Below, piece by piece: positions 21,308 through 27,539 of a stretch of 35,208 bases of DNA. The position numbers were made by a program, and so were the translations under genes. The notes under the pieces were generated by a model. The model was given only the letters and a program-made list of their open reading frames with translations. It was not told the DNA's origin and made no database searches. The stretch is from Hydrogenothermus marinus (GTDB taxonomy: Bacteria; Aquificota; Aquificia; Aquificales; Hydrogenothermaceae), in contig NZ_REFO01000018.1 of NCBI RefSeq assembly GCF_003688665.1, positions 1-35,208 on the forward strand, given 5' to 3'. The stretch's first letter is position 1, and each line of letters starts with the position of its first letter.

Positions 21308-21544
21308 ATGAATAGAATTTCACAAATTGCCATTAATGATGAAGGATTTTTATTTGATCCTTTAACTGGTGAAAGCTTCACAGTTAATCAAACAGGTTTA
21401 GAAATAATAAAAGGTTTAAAAGAAAGTAAATCAGAAGAAGAAATCATTGAATCTCTAACTGAAAATTTTGAAATTGATGAGGAAACAGCTAAAAGAGATT
21501 TTACTGATTTTATAGAAAAACTTAGAAGTTATAAAATTTTATAA
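21308..21544 (+). CDS. PqqD-family peptide-binding protein (RRE-like)
   Basis: The product is 78 aa. The PqqD winged-helix pattern is visible: FLFDPLTGESFTVNQTGLEI near residues 15-34, then EIIESLTENFEIDEETAKRD and a final helix FIEKLRSYKIL. PqqD-type proteins bind leader peptides of ribosomally made, modified peptides (RiPPs) and present them to an enzyme. There is no PqqE radical-SAM gene or PqqA-like gene next to it, so this is not PQQ synthesis. It is first in an eight-gene operon, 11 nt before an ATP-grasp gene. The ATG follows AAGAGGA. The likely partner peptide is discussed under the decarboxylase. Confidence 0.88.
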   Translation: MNRISQIAINDEGFLFDPLTGESFTVNQTGLEIIKGLKESKSEEEIIESLTENFEIDEETAKRDFTDFIEKLRSYKIL

Positions 21545-21555
21545 GGAGATAAAAA

Positions 21556-22593
21556 ATGGAGCTTAAAGTTGCTATTTCTGGTATAAATGCAGTTGATAAT
21601 CCAGGGCCAGGTATTGGAGTTGCAAAAAGTATAAAAGAAGATAAAGAGTTAAACGCAAAAATAATTGGCCTTGCTTATGATGCTATGGAACCAGGTATAT
21701 ATATGGATTGGATAATTGATAAAGCATATATAATGCCATATCCTTCTGGAGGTTATGAAGCTTACATAGAAAGACTTTATTATATAAAACAAACTTATGG
21801 GCTTGATTTTGTAATGCCTGTGTTAGATGCAGAACTTCCTATATATATAAAATATCAACAGGAACTTGAAAGAAATGGGATAAAAACTTTTTTACCTTCT
21901 TTAGAGCAGTTTAAACTTAGAGGAAAAGATAAGCTTGAAGAGATTGCTAAAAATATAGGTATAGATTCTCCAAAATCAGAAGTAGTTTCTTCTTATGAAG
22001 AACTTACAAAAGCTATAGAAAAAATTGGTCTTCCAATAATGGTAAAAGGAGCTTTTTATAAAGCATACAGAGCTTATACATTCCAAGAGGCTACAAGCTA
22101 TTTTAATAAAATTGTTGCTGAATGGGGTTATCCTGTAATTGTACAGCAAGTAGTTAAAGGTGAAGAGATGAATGTTGTAGCTGCTGGTGATGGAGAGGGA
22201 AATTCTCTTGGTATGGTTGGTATAAAAAAGATGTGGATAACAGAACTTGGTAAAATCTGGACAGGTGTAACTATAAAAAATAAAAAGATGTTAAATGCAG
22301 CAGAAAACTTTATAAAAAAGTATAAGTGGAAAGGTGCTTTTGAACTTGAATGTATAGTAGATATTGAAAATGATAAAGTTTATTTAATAGAAATAAATCC
22401 AAGATTTCCTGCTTGGTCTTATTTTTCAACAGGTGTTGGAGTAAATATTGCATCAAATATTATTAGAAAAGCATTTGGTTTAGATATAGATATTAAAGAT
22501 TACGAAGCTGGAAAGCTTTATGTTAGATATACAGATGATTTAATAACAGATATGGATAAATTCCAAAAAATAATTATAAGAGGTGAAAATTAA
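21556..22593 (+). CDS. ATP-grasp carboxylate-amine ligase-like protein
   Basis: The product is 345 aa. An N-terminal Rossmann-like pre-ATP-grasp domain (about 1-105) starts KVAISGINAVDNPGPGIGVA. The ATP-grasp domain (about 110-300) has LPIMVKGAFYKAYRAYTFQE, VVKGEEMNVVAAGDGEG and the metal-binding end YLIEINPRFPAWSYFSTGVG. Such enzymes activate a carboxylate as acyl-phosphate and join it to an amine or thiol. The layout resembles carbamoyl-phosphate synthase-like ligases, but residues alone do not give the substrate. Its place between a PqqD-like protein and a PLP decarboxylase suggests it acts on an amino acid or peptide presented by PqqD. AAGGAG precedes the ATG; its stop overlaps the next start by one base. 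Confidence 0.88.
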   Translation: MELKVAISGINAVDNPGPGIGVAKSIKEDKELNAKIIGLAYDAMEPGIYMDWIIDKAYIMPYPSGGYEAYIERLYYIKQTYGLDFVMPVLDAELPIYIKYQQELERNGIKTFLPSLEQFKLRGKDKLEEIAKNIGIDSPKSEVVSSYEELTKAIEKIGLPIMVKGAFYKAYRAYTFQEATSYFNKIVAEWGYPVIVQQVVKGEEMNVVAAGDGEGNSLGMVGIKKMWITELGKIWTGVTIKNKKMLNAAENFIKKYKWKGAFELECIVDIENDKVYLIEINPRFPAWSYFSTGVGVNIASNIIRKAFGLDIDIKDYEAGKLYVRYTDDLITDMDKFQKIIIRGEN

Positions 22594-23945
22594 TGAAGAA
22601 AAAATATGAAAAACCTGTAATTACTAAAATAGAAACTGGGTTTATGAATAAATTTGGTAGTTCTCCATATTATGCAAGAAAAATAAGAAAAGATATAGAT
22701 GGTATAACTATAGATGAGCTTGTTAATAAGTATGGTTCTCCTCTTTTTGTTATATCAGAAAGAAAACTTAGAGAAAATTATAGAAAAATGTATAATGCTT
22801 TTGCATCTCGTTATCCAAATGTTCAGTTTGGTTGGTCTTACAAAACAAACTATTTACAAGCTGTATGTGCTATATTACATCAAGAAGGAGCTATTGCAGA
22901 AGTAGTTTCTGCTTTTGAGTATGAAAAAGCAAGAAAACTTGGAATAGAAGGTAAAGATATTATATTTAATGGTCCTCATAAACCTATAGAAATACTTGAA
23001 ATAGCGGCAAAAGAAGGGGCAATGATAAATATAGATCATTTTGATGAAATATTAGATTTAGAAAAAGTAGCTGATAAACTTGGCAAACAGATAAAAGTAG
23101 CTATAAGACTTAATATGGATACAGGAATTCATCCTCAATGGAGTAGATTTGGATTTAATCTTGAAACAGGACAGGCAATGGATGCAGTAAAAAGAATTGC
23201 TGCTGGTGGAAAATTAATACTTAATGGTCTTCACTGTCATATAGGAACATTTATTATTGAACCTGAAGCTTATGCTAAAGAAGTTGAAAAAATGGTTAAA
23301 TTTGCTTATGAAATAGAAAACAATTTTGGATTTAAAATTGAGTATCTTGATATAGGTGGTGGATTTCCATCTAAAAATAGATTAAAAGGTACATATTTAT
23401 CTCCAGATGTTTTAATTCCTTCAATAGATGAGTACGCAGAAAAGATAACAGAAGCTCTTTATTCAAATCTTCGTCCAGGAGATTTTCCTAAGCTATTCAT
23501 TGAATCTGGAAGAGCAATTATTGATGAAGCTGAGTACTTAATTACAACTATTTTTGCATCAAAGAGACTTCCAGATGGTAGAAAAGCTTATATAGCAGAT
23601 GCAGGAGTTAATCTATTATTTACTGCATTTTGGTATAAATTTAATATTGAAATAGATAGAGAAGTATATGGTGCAAACGAACCAAGTGTAATATATGGTC
23701 CTTTATGTATGAATATTGATGTAATAGAGGAAGGAACATCTCTTCCGCCTCTTGAAAGAGGAACAAGACTTATATTCTCACCAGTTGGTGCTTATAACAA
23801 TACCCAATGGATGCAGTTTATAGAATATAGGCCAAATATTGTTATGATTATGGAAGATGGAACTGTTGAAGTTGTAAGAGAAAAAGAAGATTTAACAGAT
23901 ATTGAAAATAGAGAAAGATTACCAGAGAAACTAAAAATTAAATGA
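22593..23945 (+). CDS. Fold-III PLP decarboxylase-like enzyme with a RiPP-leader-like N-terminal tail
   Basis: The product is 450 aa of the DAP/ornithine/carboxynorspermidine decarboxylase group. The alanine-racemase-type barrel has the PLP lysine K84 in QFGWSYKTNYLQAV, NGLHCHIGTF (211-220), LDIGGGFPS (252-260) and FIESGRAI (302-309). The C-terminal beta domain has IYGPLCMNIDVIE, whose Cys372 matches the active-site Cys, and SPVGAYNNTQWMQF. The first ~45 residues are extra: MKKKYEKPVITKIETGFMNK begins with YEKPVI, which fits the YxxPxL-type motif that PqqD-like domains bind in lasso-peptide leaders. It is unlikely to be plain LysA, because of this tail and operon. It overlaps the next gene by 4 nt. 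Confidence 0.87.
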   Translation: MKKKYEKPVITKIETGFMNKFGSSPYYARKIRKDIDGITIDELVNKYGSPLFVISERKLRENYRKMYNAFASRYPNVQFGWSYKTNYLQAVCAILHQEGAIAEVVSAFEYEKARKLGIEGKDIIFNGPHKPIEILEIAAKEGAMINIDHFDEILDLEKVADKLGKQIKVAIRLNMDTGIHPQWSRFGFNLETGQAMDAVKRIAAGGKLILNGLHCHIGTFIIEPEAYAKEVEKMVKFAYEIENNFGFKIEYLDIGGGFPSKNRLKGTYLSPDVLIPSIDEYAEKITEALYSNLRPGDFPKLFIESGRAIIDEAEYLITTIFASKRLPDGRKAYIADAGVNLLFTAFWYKFNIEIDREVYGANEPSVIYGPLCMNIDVIEEGTSLPPLERGTRLIFSPVGAYNNTQWMQFIEYRPNIVMIMEDGTVEVVREKEDLTDIENRERLPEKLKIK

Positions 23946-26026
23946 AACAATATATTCTCTATCTGAAAGCTATACTAAATAGTTATTCTGAAATACTTTT
24001 CCTACAAGGATTTATAACTGGAGCTATAATTCTCCTTTCTACTTTTATAAATCCTTCTATTGGTATTGCAGGATTAATATCTGTTTTATCTGCTTATTTT
24101 ATAGCTAGATTTTTAAATATGGGAAGGGAATTTCTTGAATCAGGATTTTATACATATAATGCTTTATTAGTTGGACTTTCTATAGGTTATTTATTTAAGA
24201 TAACCCCTTTAACTATCTTTTTTACTATCATAGCAGGAATTTTAACCTTTATATTTTCAGTTATGCTTTATAAAATTTTTTCTTATTATTTAGCTTTACC
24301 AATTTTAAGTATACCTTTTGTTGTAATTAGCTCTATTTTATATCTTTCTGCATATTCATATTCCAATCTTTTTGTTGATTCTTTATATCCTCATTCTCAT
24401 TTTGAATTTTTAGAAGATATATTTCCTTTATGGTTAAGTGGATATTTTAAATCTCTTGGCGCAATTTTATTTTTACCAGATGTATTTATTGGAATTATTT
24501 TTTCTATTTTACTATTTTTTAGCTCAAGAATACTTTTTTTATTATCTATTATTGGATATATTACAGGTAGCTTATCTCTATATTTCTTAACAGGTTCCTA
24601 TTCTCAAGCTTTTTCAGATATTACTAATTTTAATTTTATCTTAATTGCTATGGCTTTAGGAGGAATATTTTTAATTCCTTCTATAAAATCTTATTTTATA
24701 GCTTTAATTGGAGTAATAACCTCTACGATAGTACTTTCTGCAACAAAAACTTTTTGGTCTTTTTATGGAATACCAATATTTACATTTCCATTTAATTTCA
24801 CCACTTTATCTTTTATTTATGTTCTTGGTGCTTTAGGTTTTCCACTTTTAGCAAAGATTATAAGAAAAAATCCTGAAGAGACCTTAGACTACTACCTCAC
24901 AACTCAAAAAAGATTTAGTGGTACTACAAGAGGTATATATCTTCCTTTTTCTGGTGAATGGACAGTTTGGCAAGGGTTTAACGATGAATGGACCCATAAA
25001 GGAAATTGGAAATATGCTTATGATTTTGTAATTACAGATGAAAATGGTAAAACCTATAAAGGAGATGGCCTTAATCTTACAGACTATTATGCATTTAAAA
25101 AACCTGTTTTATCACCAGTTAGAGGAAGAGTAGTAAAAGTAGTTTCAAATTTACCAGATAATCCTATAGGAACAGTTGATAGAGAAAATAATTGGGGAAA
25201 TTATATTGTAATTTATGATTTTAGAGGATTTTATGTAGAACTTTCTCATTTTGCTCAAAACTCAATAAAAGTTAAAGAAGGAGATTGGGTAGAAATTGGC
25301 AGTTTTTTAGGGCTTTGTGGAAATTCTGGATATTCACCTCAACCACATATACATATTCAAGTACAAGCTACAGAAGAAGTAGGTAGTTTAACATTACCAT
25401 TTAGTTTTATAAGTTATATATCAGGTAAACAATTTTTTTCAAATAATCTTCCTAAGAAAAAAGAAAAGGTTAAGCCTGCTTATCCAGATATTTCTATAAA
25501 AAATAAACTTTCTTTTTATCTTGATAATCAGTTTATATACGAAATTTATAAAAATAATCAAAAAATAGATGAATTTTCTATGAAAGTTAAGATGGAAATA
25601 GATGGGACATTTTATTTTGAAACAGAAAAAGGAAAACTTTATTTTGGAAAAGATGAAAGCAGTTTTTATTTTTATAGTCTTAAAGGAGATGATAAATACT
25701 TAAAAATTATATTTAGAGCTATACCTAAAATTCCTTTAATTTCAGAAAAAGATATAAAATGGATAGATTTTATTCCTTTTGATATAGCTTTTAATAATCT
25801 TTTTAAAAACCTAATATTGTTTATAGCATCTTTTAATCATTCAATAGGATTAGTTAAGTATGAAGGAAAGATTATAGATTATGGAAAATTTGAAGGATTA
25901 ATAAAAAATCCATTTTCAAAAAAAGAGTATAAATCTTATGTGATTTTAGATGAAAATTTAGGATTCAAAGAGATAAAAATTGATTCTATAAAATTTGTTT
26001 TAAAAAAGATAAATTATGGAGGTTAA
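23942..26026 (+). CDS. Urea-transporter-like membrane domain fused to an M23 (LytM-type) peptidase
   Basis: The product is 694 aa. Residues 1-305 are a polytopic membrane domain resembling urea transporters: ESGFYTYNALLVGLSIGYLF (66-85), YYLALPILSIPFVVISSILY (115-134) and a second half ending LGALGFPLLAKI. A periplasmic M23 metallopeptidase domain follows (about 330-490): GEWTVWQGFN, candidate ligands H352 and D361 (THKGNWKYAYDF), PVLSPVRGRVVKV, HFAQNSIKVKEGDWV and the HxH pair H469/H471 (PQPHIHIQ). M23 enzymes cut peptide cross-links in peptidoglycan or other peptides. Residues 490-694 are beta-rich and unrecognised. The ATG overlaps the decarboxylase stop (ATGA) with no separate Shine-Dalgarno. 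Confidence 0.85.
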   Translation: MKQYILYLKAILNSYSEILFLQGFITGAIILLSTFINPSIGIAGLISVLSAYFIARFLNMGREFLESGFYTYNALLVGLSIGYLFKITPLTIFFTIIAGILTFIFSVMLYKIFSYYLALPILSIPFVVISSILYLSAYSYSNLFVDSLYPHSHFEFLEDIFPLWLSGYFKSLGAILFLPDVFIGIIFSILLFFSSRILFLLSIIGYITGSLSLYFLTGSYSQAFSDITNFNFILIAMALGGIFLIPSIKSYFIALIGVITSTIVLSATKTFWSFYGIPIFTFPFNFTTLSFIYVLGALGFPLLAKIIRKNPEETLDYYLTTQKRFSGTTRGIYLPFSGEWTVWQGFNDEWTHKGNWKYAYDFVITDENGKTYKGDGLNLTDYYAFKKPVLSPVRGRVVKVVSNLPDNPIGTVDRENNWGNYIVIYDFRGFYVELSHFAQNSIKVKEGDWVEIGSFLGLCGNSGYSPQPHIHIQVQATEEVGSLTLPFSFISYISGKQFFSNNLPKKKEKVKPAYPDISIKNKLSFYLDNQFIYEIYKNNQKIDEFSMKVKMEIDGTFYFETEKGKLYFGKDESSFYFYSLKGDDKYLKIIFRAIPKIPLISEKDIKWIDFIPFDIAFNNLFKNLILFIASFNHSIGLVKYEGKIIDYGKFEGLIKNPFSKKEYKSYVILDENLGFKEIKIDSIKFVLKKINYGG

Positions 26027-26030
26027 AGTT

Positions 26031-26900
26031 ATGAAAAAATTTCTTATAGGATTATTTATATTTGCACCTTTATCAACATCAATAGCAAGTAATATTGGTT
26101 ATTTTAGTAGCGTAATTTACGGAACTCCTTTAATTTATAATAACTCTTCAGTTAAAGATAATGGTTATTTTACAGGAGTATATTTTTCTTATAAAACACT
26201 AAATTTATTAAATCTTTTTGAAACAGCTATAGACCATACATATATAAAATACAAAGATAATACTCATTTAAATCAGAATGATTTTACTTTTGCATATACA
26301 AACTATATGATTAGAGAAATTAAGTTAAAAGCTGGAGCCCATTATATATCTTCAGATGATAAAAATACCGATAAAGGATTTGTAATTTTTGGAGAAATAA
26401 CAAAATATAGACTTTATCAATGGAATTATGGTTTAGAAATGTATTTTTCAAGATATAAAGATTATCCAACTATCAAAAATAAAGGTTTGAATGTTTATCA
26501 GATAAATCCAAAATTTGGCTTTTATCTTGGAAATTATTACAAAGGTGGTCGTTATTATATTCAGATTAAACCTTATTATATTCATTTATCTGAAGATTTA
26601 ACTGGAGTTAATAAAAATTCCTTTTCTACAGAAGGACTTTTATCTTATTTTATTAAAAATTGGACAATTTCTTTAAAAGGTTATGTAGGTGATCAGGCTT
26701 TCCCAGTTAGAGATGGAGGTTTTACAGTTTATAATTTATCAGAAAAAAGAAAATATGGATTTGGTGGTTCTGTAAAATATATATTATCTCGTAATTTTAG
26801 TTTAACCTTATCTGCATTTAGAGATTATTTTAATGATATAGGTACAAATAAAACTGCTTCTACAACAACTGCTATACTTATACTTGGTGCATCTTTTTAA
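26031..26900 (+). CDS. Predicted outer-membrane beta-barrel protein
   Basis: The product is 289 aa. A signal peptide is visible (KKFLIGLFIFAPLSTSIAS, cleavage probably near residue 20). The rest alternates polar and aromatic residues in amphipathic strands and ends in LILGASF, with the C-terminal Phe expected for Bam-dependent barrels. An upstream in-frame ATG at 26016 is rejected: GGAGG (26018-26022) sits between it and ATG 26031 and the latter starts a proper signal peptide. I cannot name the family; a YaiO-like barrel is one possibility given the TPR gene that follows. It lies 4 nt after the membrane peptidase gene. Confidence 0.75.
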   Translation: MKKFLIGLFIFAPLSTSIASNIGYFSSVIYGTPLIYNNSSVKDNGYFTGVYFSYKTLNLLNLFETAIDHTYIKYKDNTHLNQNDFTFAYTNYMIREIKLKAGAHYISSDDKNTDKGFVIFGEITKYRLYQWNYGLEMYFSRYKDYPTIKNKGLNVYQINPKFGFYLGNYYKGGRYYIQIKPYYIHLSEDLTGVNKNSFSTEGLLSYFIKNWTISLKGYVGDQAFPVRDGGFTVYNLSEKRKYGFGGSVKYILSRNFSLTLSAFRDYFNDIGTNKTASTTTAILILGASF

Positions 26901-26912
26901 CAGGAGAGAAAA

Positions 26913-27539
26913 TTGGTAAAGAAAATAATATTAATTTTATTAGCAATATTTAATTTTTCCTTTGGCATGTCTTTTGAAGATATAAAAAAGGCATACCATC
27001 TTTCTTATCAATATGAAAAAATGCAAGATTATAAAGATGCAATAAAAGTTTTAATTCCTATATATAATAAATATCCTACAGGATATACAGTCAATCTTAG
27101 ACTTGGTTGGCTTTATTATTTAAATAAAAATTATGCAAATTCTAAGTTCCATTATGAAAAGGCAATAAAAGCTTTACCTTATTCTATAGAAGCAAAACTT
27201 GGATATACATTGCCCCTTTTAGCTCAGGGAAAATTCTCAGATGTAGAAAAAGTGTGTTATTCAATAATAAGTAAAGATTATTATAACTATTATGCTAATT
27301 TAAGACTTTCTTATGTATTAAGAAAAGAAAAAAAGTTTGAAGATGCTCAAAAAATTGTGAATAAAATGCTCTTAGTATATCCAACAGATGTAAAATTTCT
27401 TACTGAGTTAGCATTAATAAAATATGCTTTAAAAGATTACAAAACTGCAAAAAAGATTTTTCAAGATATAATAATTTTAGATCCAGAAAATATATTAGCT
27501 AAAAATTATTTATATAAAATTATTGAGAGGGAAAAATAA
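26913..27539 (+). CDS. Periplasmic TPR-repeat protein (TTG start)
   Basis: The product is 208 aa. A signal peptide (MVKKIILILLAIFNFSFG) is followed by about four tetratricopeptide repeats: QYEKMQDYKDAIKVLIPIYN, LGWLYYLNKNYANSKFHYEK, LRLSYVLRKEKKFEDAQKIV and LALIKYALKDYKTAKKIFQD. Such repeats bind partner proteins. It starts at TTG 26913 after AGGAGAG. The end overlaps the ATG of the aldo/keto reductase by one base. Pairing with an outer-membrane barrel suggests that the two assemble at the outer membrane. Confidence 0.82.
   Translation: MVKKIILILLAIFNFSFGMSFEDIKKAYHLSYQYEKMQDYKDAIKVLIPIYNKYPTGYTVNLRLGWLYYLNKNYANSKFHYEKAIKALPYSIEAKLGYTLPLLAQGKFSDVEKVCYSIISKDYYNYYANLRLSYVLRKEKKFEDAQKIVNKMLLVYPTDVKFLTELALIKYALKDYKTAKKIFQDIIILDPENILAKNYLYKIIEREK

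Follow-up and report, generated by a model that had tools for sequence, protein, structure and literature searches.

The window, that is, the whole stretch of DNA that was analysed (35,208 nucleotides), contains an operon in which the genes of a small PqqD-like protein and an ATP-grasp ligase are followed by that of a PLP decarboxylase (DEC), encoded by the open reading frame at 22593-23945 on the forward strand. The features of this region are as follows.

21308..21544, forward strand: PqqD-like discrete RRE of 78 aa, the proposed tail-binding protein, with Asn27 and Asp64 as predicted YxxP contacts
21556..22593, forward strand: ATP-grasp ligase of 345 aa, PRK12767/CarB-like, the proposed partner enzyme
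22593..22694, forward strand: N-terminal tail of DEC, residues 1-34, delimited by sequence and family alignment and disordered in the AlphaFold2 model
22605-22622, forward strand: predicted docking motif YEKPVI, DEC residues 5-10, recognised by family conservation
within the DEC tail, forward strand: second, laxer block formed by G16 and N19-K20-F21-G22
22695..23945, forward strand: DEC catalytic domains, fold-type III PLP decarboxylase (Orn_Arg_deC_N, PF02784, and Orn_DAP_Arg_deC, PF00278)
23942..26026, forward strand: fusion of a urea transporter (UT, PF03253) and an M23 peptidase (PF01551), conserved operon member
26016..26900, forward strand: porin-like outer-membrane protein, conserved operon member, named from its sequence (no Pfam match)
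26913..27539, forward strand: TPR protein with a signal-like N-terminus, conserved operon member

The stand-alone PqqD-like gene and the ATP-grasp gene are present as the earlier note had it, and the PqqD-like product matches the Pfam family PqqD (PF05402) with 56.4 bits against a gathering score of 23.4. The two Pfam domains of DEC score 123.2 bits (Orn_Arg_deC_N) and 43.4 bits (Orn_DAP_Arg_deC), which places the enzyme in fold-type III, and the catalytic-type residues K84 and C372 are conserved in the family. With the LysA model TIGR01048, DEC reaches 218.2, below the cut-off of 297.9; a separate LysA-like gene is present in genome G000. The ATP-grasp protein belongs to its superfamily according to PF02786 (36.0 bits, cut-off 19.8) and stays below every equivalog cut-off shown. 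In the UT/M23 fusion, the catalytic His and Asp of the M23 domain are kept in 59 of 59 family members. The same protein (23942-26026) has a cysteine, C459, that is invariant in the 59 members, and positive charges after its last membrane helix.

The start codon of DEC shares one base with the stop codon of the ATP-grasp gene (TAATG). The product opens MKKKYEKPVITKIETGFMNKFGSSPYYARKIRKDIDG, and its first ten residues, MKKKYEKPVI, lie upstream of the barrel. The extension was earlier put at about 45 residues; a length of 31-34 was measured instead, because solved decarboxylases align from DEC residue 32-35 onward and order in the AlphaFold2 model begins at approximately residue 31. The pLDDT of the tail is 39-55, compared with more than 90 across most of the body. 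Such a pairing of conservation with predicted disorder is what docking peptides typically show; however, the model is a monomer, in which packing of the tail on a second DEC subunit would be invisible.

To describe this conservation, 78 tails were compared, including divergent members with 44-53% DEC identity. Pro8 occurs in 78 of 78 and Tyr5 in 75 of 78 (Phe, Phe and Leu in the others), while residue 10 is hydrophobic throughout, being I, V, L, F or M in all 78. The motif bound by discrete lasso-peptide RREs is [Y/W]xxPx[L/V/I/F/A] (PMC13381572). The earlier note had read YEKPVI as such a leader motif with Ile for Leu, and had made its proposal depend on conservation of the tail in homologues; the family keeps both the pattern and the tail. 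In the order (61 genomes, the window's genome included), 18 of 18 full-length DEC orthologues carry MKKxY(E/Q)KP(V/I)I or a near form, and the LysA paralogues are without such a tail. Beyond the order, the tail is found in essentially all of the 80 loci described below. The second block, G16 and N19-K20-F21-G22, is common among the 78 tails without being strict. Tyr is encoded by both of its codons and Pro by all four of its own; therefore, the constraint on the motif acts on the protein. Constraint from an overlapping gene was rejected, since no more than a single base is shared between DEC and the ATP-grasp gene and synonymous codon choice varies.

The YxxPx(I/L) motif by itself is at chance level: the 1.6 Mb genome has 27 matches to the corresponding DNA pattern, compared with 28 for a reversed control. 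Consequently, the case is built on conservation, which is far above chance, and a chance motif as an explanation is countered by its retention in the 78 tails. Matches of the tail profile to a tryglysin RiPP (E 0.038) and to DUF5972 (E 0.041), and PDB matches to PRP22, were set aside as too weak. In three Thermodesulfatator-type loci (L140, L141 and L161), YQKPTI is kept and the NKFG block is lost, so that the two conserved parts of the tail are separable.

With the ATP-grasp protein as query, 80 loci were recovered from 85,000 species genomes. In nearly all of them, PqqD lies directly upstream and DEC downstream of the ATP-grasp gene, and UT-M23, porin and TPR genes then mostly follow DEC. 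The pqqD–ATP-grasp–DEC–UT/M23 operon is spread over approximately 20 phyla by record title, where titles of metagenome bins can be wrong. These include Aquificota, Bacteroidota-type lineages, Calditrichota, Verrucomicrobia, Planctomycetota and Gemmatimonadota, with further carriers in Desulfobacterota, Thermodesulfobacteria, WOR-3, Nitrospinia and Proteobacteria; cultured carriers are Thermodesulfobacterium hydrogeniphilum and Thermodesulfatator autotrophicus. Among the 61 genomes of the order, a pqqD orthologue is present only where DEC or a piece of DEC is present, the one exception being an 83%-complete genome whose pqqD lies at the end of a contig. In another phylum (198 genomes), a PqqD match accompanies DEC in 10 of 10 genomes, and four more genomes have weak PqqD matches only. 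In one Aquificota family, pqqD and the ATP-grasp gene are unlinked from DEC, and the tail is still kept. Searches for the ATP-grasp orthologue on plasmids and for the PqqD orthologue in phages found none. Extra copies were observed in two cases: a tandem partial duplication, comprising pqqD and the ATP-grasp start, upstream of an intact operon (L111:188-2825), and a Desulfofervidaceae genome that has the pqqD-ATP-grasp-DEC operon twice (G068, contigs C9 and C14).

The operon was also said to contain no small precursor gene, and the wider comparison agrees: no conserved small YxxP ORF was found near it in the 80 loci, which speaks against a hidden precursor gene beside the operon. Other YxxP ligands encoded in the operon were likewise rejected, because the [YWF]xxP sequences at conserved positions of the ATP-grasp and UT-M23 proteins sit inside folded domains. 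A precursor could instead be located away from the operon and be served there by PqqD, with the DEC tail imitating its leader as a competitor or regulator. Several YxxP peptides can be bound by one RRE, as in the case of FusB1 (PMC13381572). Such an arrangement is nevertheless very improbable, given the missing small ORF and the fact that this pqqD, the only PF05402 gene of the genome, tracks DEC across genomes.

The PqqD-like protein has the features expected of a reader of the tail. Its closest solved relatives by sequence are TbiB1 and TfuB1. The AlphaFold2 model (pLDDT 93) adopts the winged-helix RRE fold, and its best structural matches are leader-bound TbiB1 (5V1U/5V1V) and TfuB1 (6JX3), with Z of approximately 11. 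In the family alignment, Asp64 is present in 78 of 79 members and Asn27 in 60 of 79, with Ser in the other 19. Both positions align without gaps to positions 33 and 70 of TbiB1, and their spacing of 37 residues is equal to that of N33 and D70 in LppB. In LppB bound to LppA, the Tyr hydroxyl of the leader is bonded by Asp70, and the kink at Pro is held in place by Asn33; the D70A substitution lowers complex formation with the leader, and N33A nearly abolishes it (PMC13381572). The Asn and Asp residues that hold YxxP are thus found in the PqqD-like family.

Natural variants provide a further view of the proposed contact. In three divergent loci of the Verrucomicrobia phylum (L164-L166), the tails read FEPPRL, LEPPRL and FEAPRI; the Tyr5 hydroxyl is gone, and Pro8 and the hydrophobic residue 10 are retained. 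The PqqDs of these loci have Gly, Ser and Ala in place of Asp64 and retain Asn27. When tails and PqqDs are paired, Tyr occurs with Asp 70 times and with another residue twice, whereas Phe or Leu occurs with Asp in no case and with another residue in three (Fisher p 1e-4, uncorrected for shared ancestry). The joint change is probably one event in one clade, seen at three loci. Tyr5 is kept without Asp64 in L088 and L180.

A different variant is found in a distant relative, L167, where PqqD and a first ATP-grasp are followed by a small ORF, then by another ATP-grasp and a DEC that has no tail. The small ORF encodes 64-70 aa (EGYEKPMVKRH...), so that the motif, as YEKPMV, is off the enzyme and on a separate peptide. 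This ORF (L167:8048-8263, reverse strand) may be a free precursor or a scaffold peptide of a related pathway. L167 is a single case, and its order contains one genome; a search of its class (288 genomes) for more split loci gave only L167 and one weak match (6.8e-61), which appears to be the tailed L090 locus. On plasmids, the L167 decarboxylase found LysA-like genes only. At L160 (1783-3920), pqqD and a tailed DEC flank a tandem pair of different ATP-grasp genes, which suggests that some versions of the pathway include two ligation steps.

Of the two roles that the earlier note allowed for the tail, a bound partner of PqqD or a substrate of the ATP-grasp protein, the first is favoured. Comparative evidence strongly supports DEC as the predicted partner of the PqqD-like protein, namely tail conservation, the RRE pocket, co-occurrence, the Tyr5/Asp64 covariation and the L167 peptide, with the modified tail as the alternative to be weighed against it. 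As a substrate, the tail would be RiPP-like in cis: PqqD would present it, the ATP-grasp protein would modify it, for example within TGxMNKFG, and the M23 peptidase would perhaps trim it. The second block (G16, N19, K20, F21) does lie at a core-like distance from the motif, the operon supplies both an ATP-grasp ligase and an M23 peptidase with intact catalytic residues, and the free L167 peptide bears the motif. However, modification is less likely than docking because nothing after Pro8 is invariant. Several lineages have P, T or E in place of Lys20 (L164-L166 and L088 have P), a few lack Asn19, and NK is missing from Thermodesulfatator-type loci, which have REKKS. Moreover, no match of the PRK12767/CarB-like ATP-grasp protein to a graspetide-ligase model was seen. 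The tail does resemble a RiPP precursor in having its recognition motif near the N-terminus (78 tails); such a precursor is, however, a short peptide with a separate core, whereas here the motif is fused to a 415-aa enzyme and no core residue is invariant. Taken together, modification of the tail is not supported, and a substrate role is doubtful.

A more elaborate version would make DEC its own substrate. PqqD would hold the tail, the ATP-grasp protein would build a product on it, DEC would decarboxylate that product in cis, and M23 would release it. The polypeptide would then be both an enzyme and a RiPP-like precursor, born by capture of a stand-alone, L167-like precursor. This scheme is considered unlikely.

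The tail could also order itself on a DEC dimer. Decarboxylases of fold III form dimers whose active sites are shared between the subunits, and the tail might be a structural or regulatory arm of the homodimer, such as an active-site lid, with PqqD binding something else. Packing of the NKFG block against the other subunit would be compatible with the monomer model. Such an arm would nevertheless leave unexplained the YxxPx(I/L) match with its invariant Pro, the conserved grip residues of the RRE, the joint change in L164-L166 and, in L167, the occurrence of the motif on an ORF of its own; the surroundings of the operon yielded no further conserved candidate for a ligand. An arm of this kind has a low probability.

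The reading adopted here is that the DEC tail probably docks, in the manner of a leader peptide, on the stand-alone RRE of its operon, which is predicted to act as an enzyme-enzyme adaptor tethering DEC to the ATP-grasp protein. In this mechanism, DEC residues 5-10 would be added as a strand in the alpha3/beta3 cleft of PqqD, where Asp64 would bond the Tyr5 hydroxyl and Asn27 would fix the Pro8 kink. PqqD would then tether DEC, which is usually dimeric and would therefore carry two tails, to the ATP-grasp ligase. The latter is the most likely second partner because the pqqD, ATP-grasp and DEC genes travel together, an assignment drawn from gene order only. Tethering would couple the ligation and decarboxylation of one substrate, and the UT/M23, porin and TPR proteins would then handle the product. 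The RRE would thus serve as an adaptor between enzymes instead of presenting a peptide that becomes the product.

RRE-leader recognition itself is well known; its proposed use on an enzyme tail across many phyla is the part that seems new. No publications on this operon or on RRE recognition of an enzyme tail were found in a search conducted mostly outside subscription journals. In RRE surveys, many PqqD-like proteins turn up in neighbourhoods that lack the expected RiPP machinery; such orphans have been left aside as either potential false positives or representatives of RiPP classes yet to be characterised (RRE-Finder, PMC7470986). One large and widespread group of them now receives a specific predicted ligand in the N-terminal tail of an enzyme from the same operon, and it seems that a recognition system of peptide natural products has found a second use in tethering enzymes to each other. 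If this is true, proteins outside RiPP biosynthesis also dock through RRE-leader recognition, which is then a general device, and RRE-guided genome mining should seek tagged enzymes too. The system also offers a portable tag/reader pair of thermophile origin (approximately 10 and 78 residues) and gives access to an uncharacterised operon common to approximately 20 phyla.

Among known systems, the lasso RREs TbiB1 and TfuB1/FusB1 are the closest by sequence and structure, and they share the RRE fold, the leader motif class and the predicted contacts of the Tyr hydroxyl with Asp and of Pro with Asn. In contrast to their YxxPxL leaders, the ligand here is the N-terminus of a 450-aa enzyme. Neither a lasso cyclase nor a leader peptidase is among the identified operon genes and, unlike in lasso B1 systems, a precursor gene is also missing, so the locus does not qualify as a lasso cluster. 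In the LPP RiPP family (LppB-LppA), a YxxPx leader is held by Asn33 and Asp70, comparable to Asn27 and Asp64 with equal spacing; LppA is, however, a short precursor peptide, the product is linear and phosphorylated, and the family is confined to Bacillota (PMC13381572). For DEC, the nearest enzyme by sequence and fold is the N-citrylornithine decarboxylase FslC, although identity is only 32-33%, the score with NCBIfam model NF041039 is 225.9 against a cut-off of 500, and no tail is aligned. BtrK, the L-glutamyl-[BtrI carrier] decarboxylase of butirosin biosynthesis, is a possible chemical precedent: it is also a fold III PLP decarboxylase and acts on a protein-tethered amino acid, but it uses an acyl carrier protein in place of an RRE and is only a moderate match to DEC. 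The partner of BtrK, BtrJ, is an ATP-grasp ligase. Finally, in PqqD-PqqA-PqqE and TclI-type RRE scaffolds, a small stand-alone RRE likewise coordinates enzymes via a held peptide; there the peptide is the substrate, whereas here it is proposed to be an enzyme tag.
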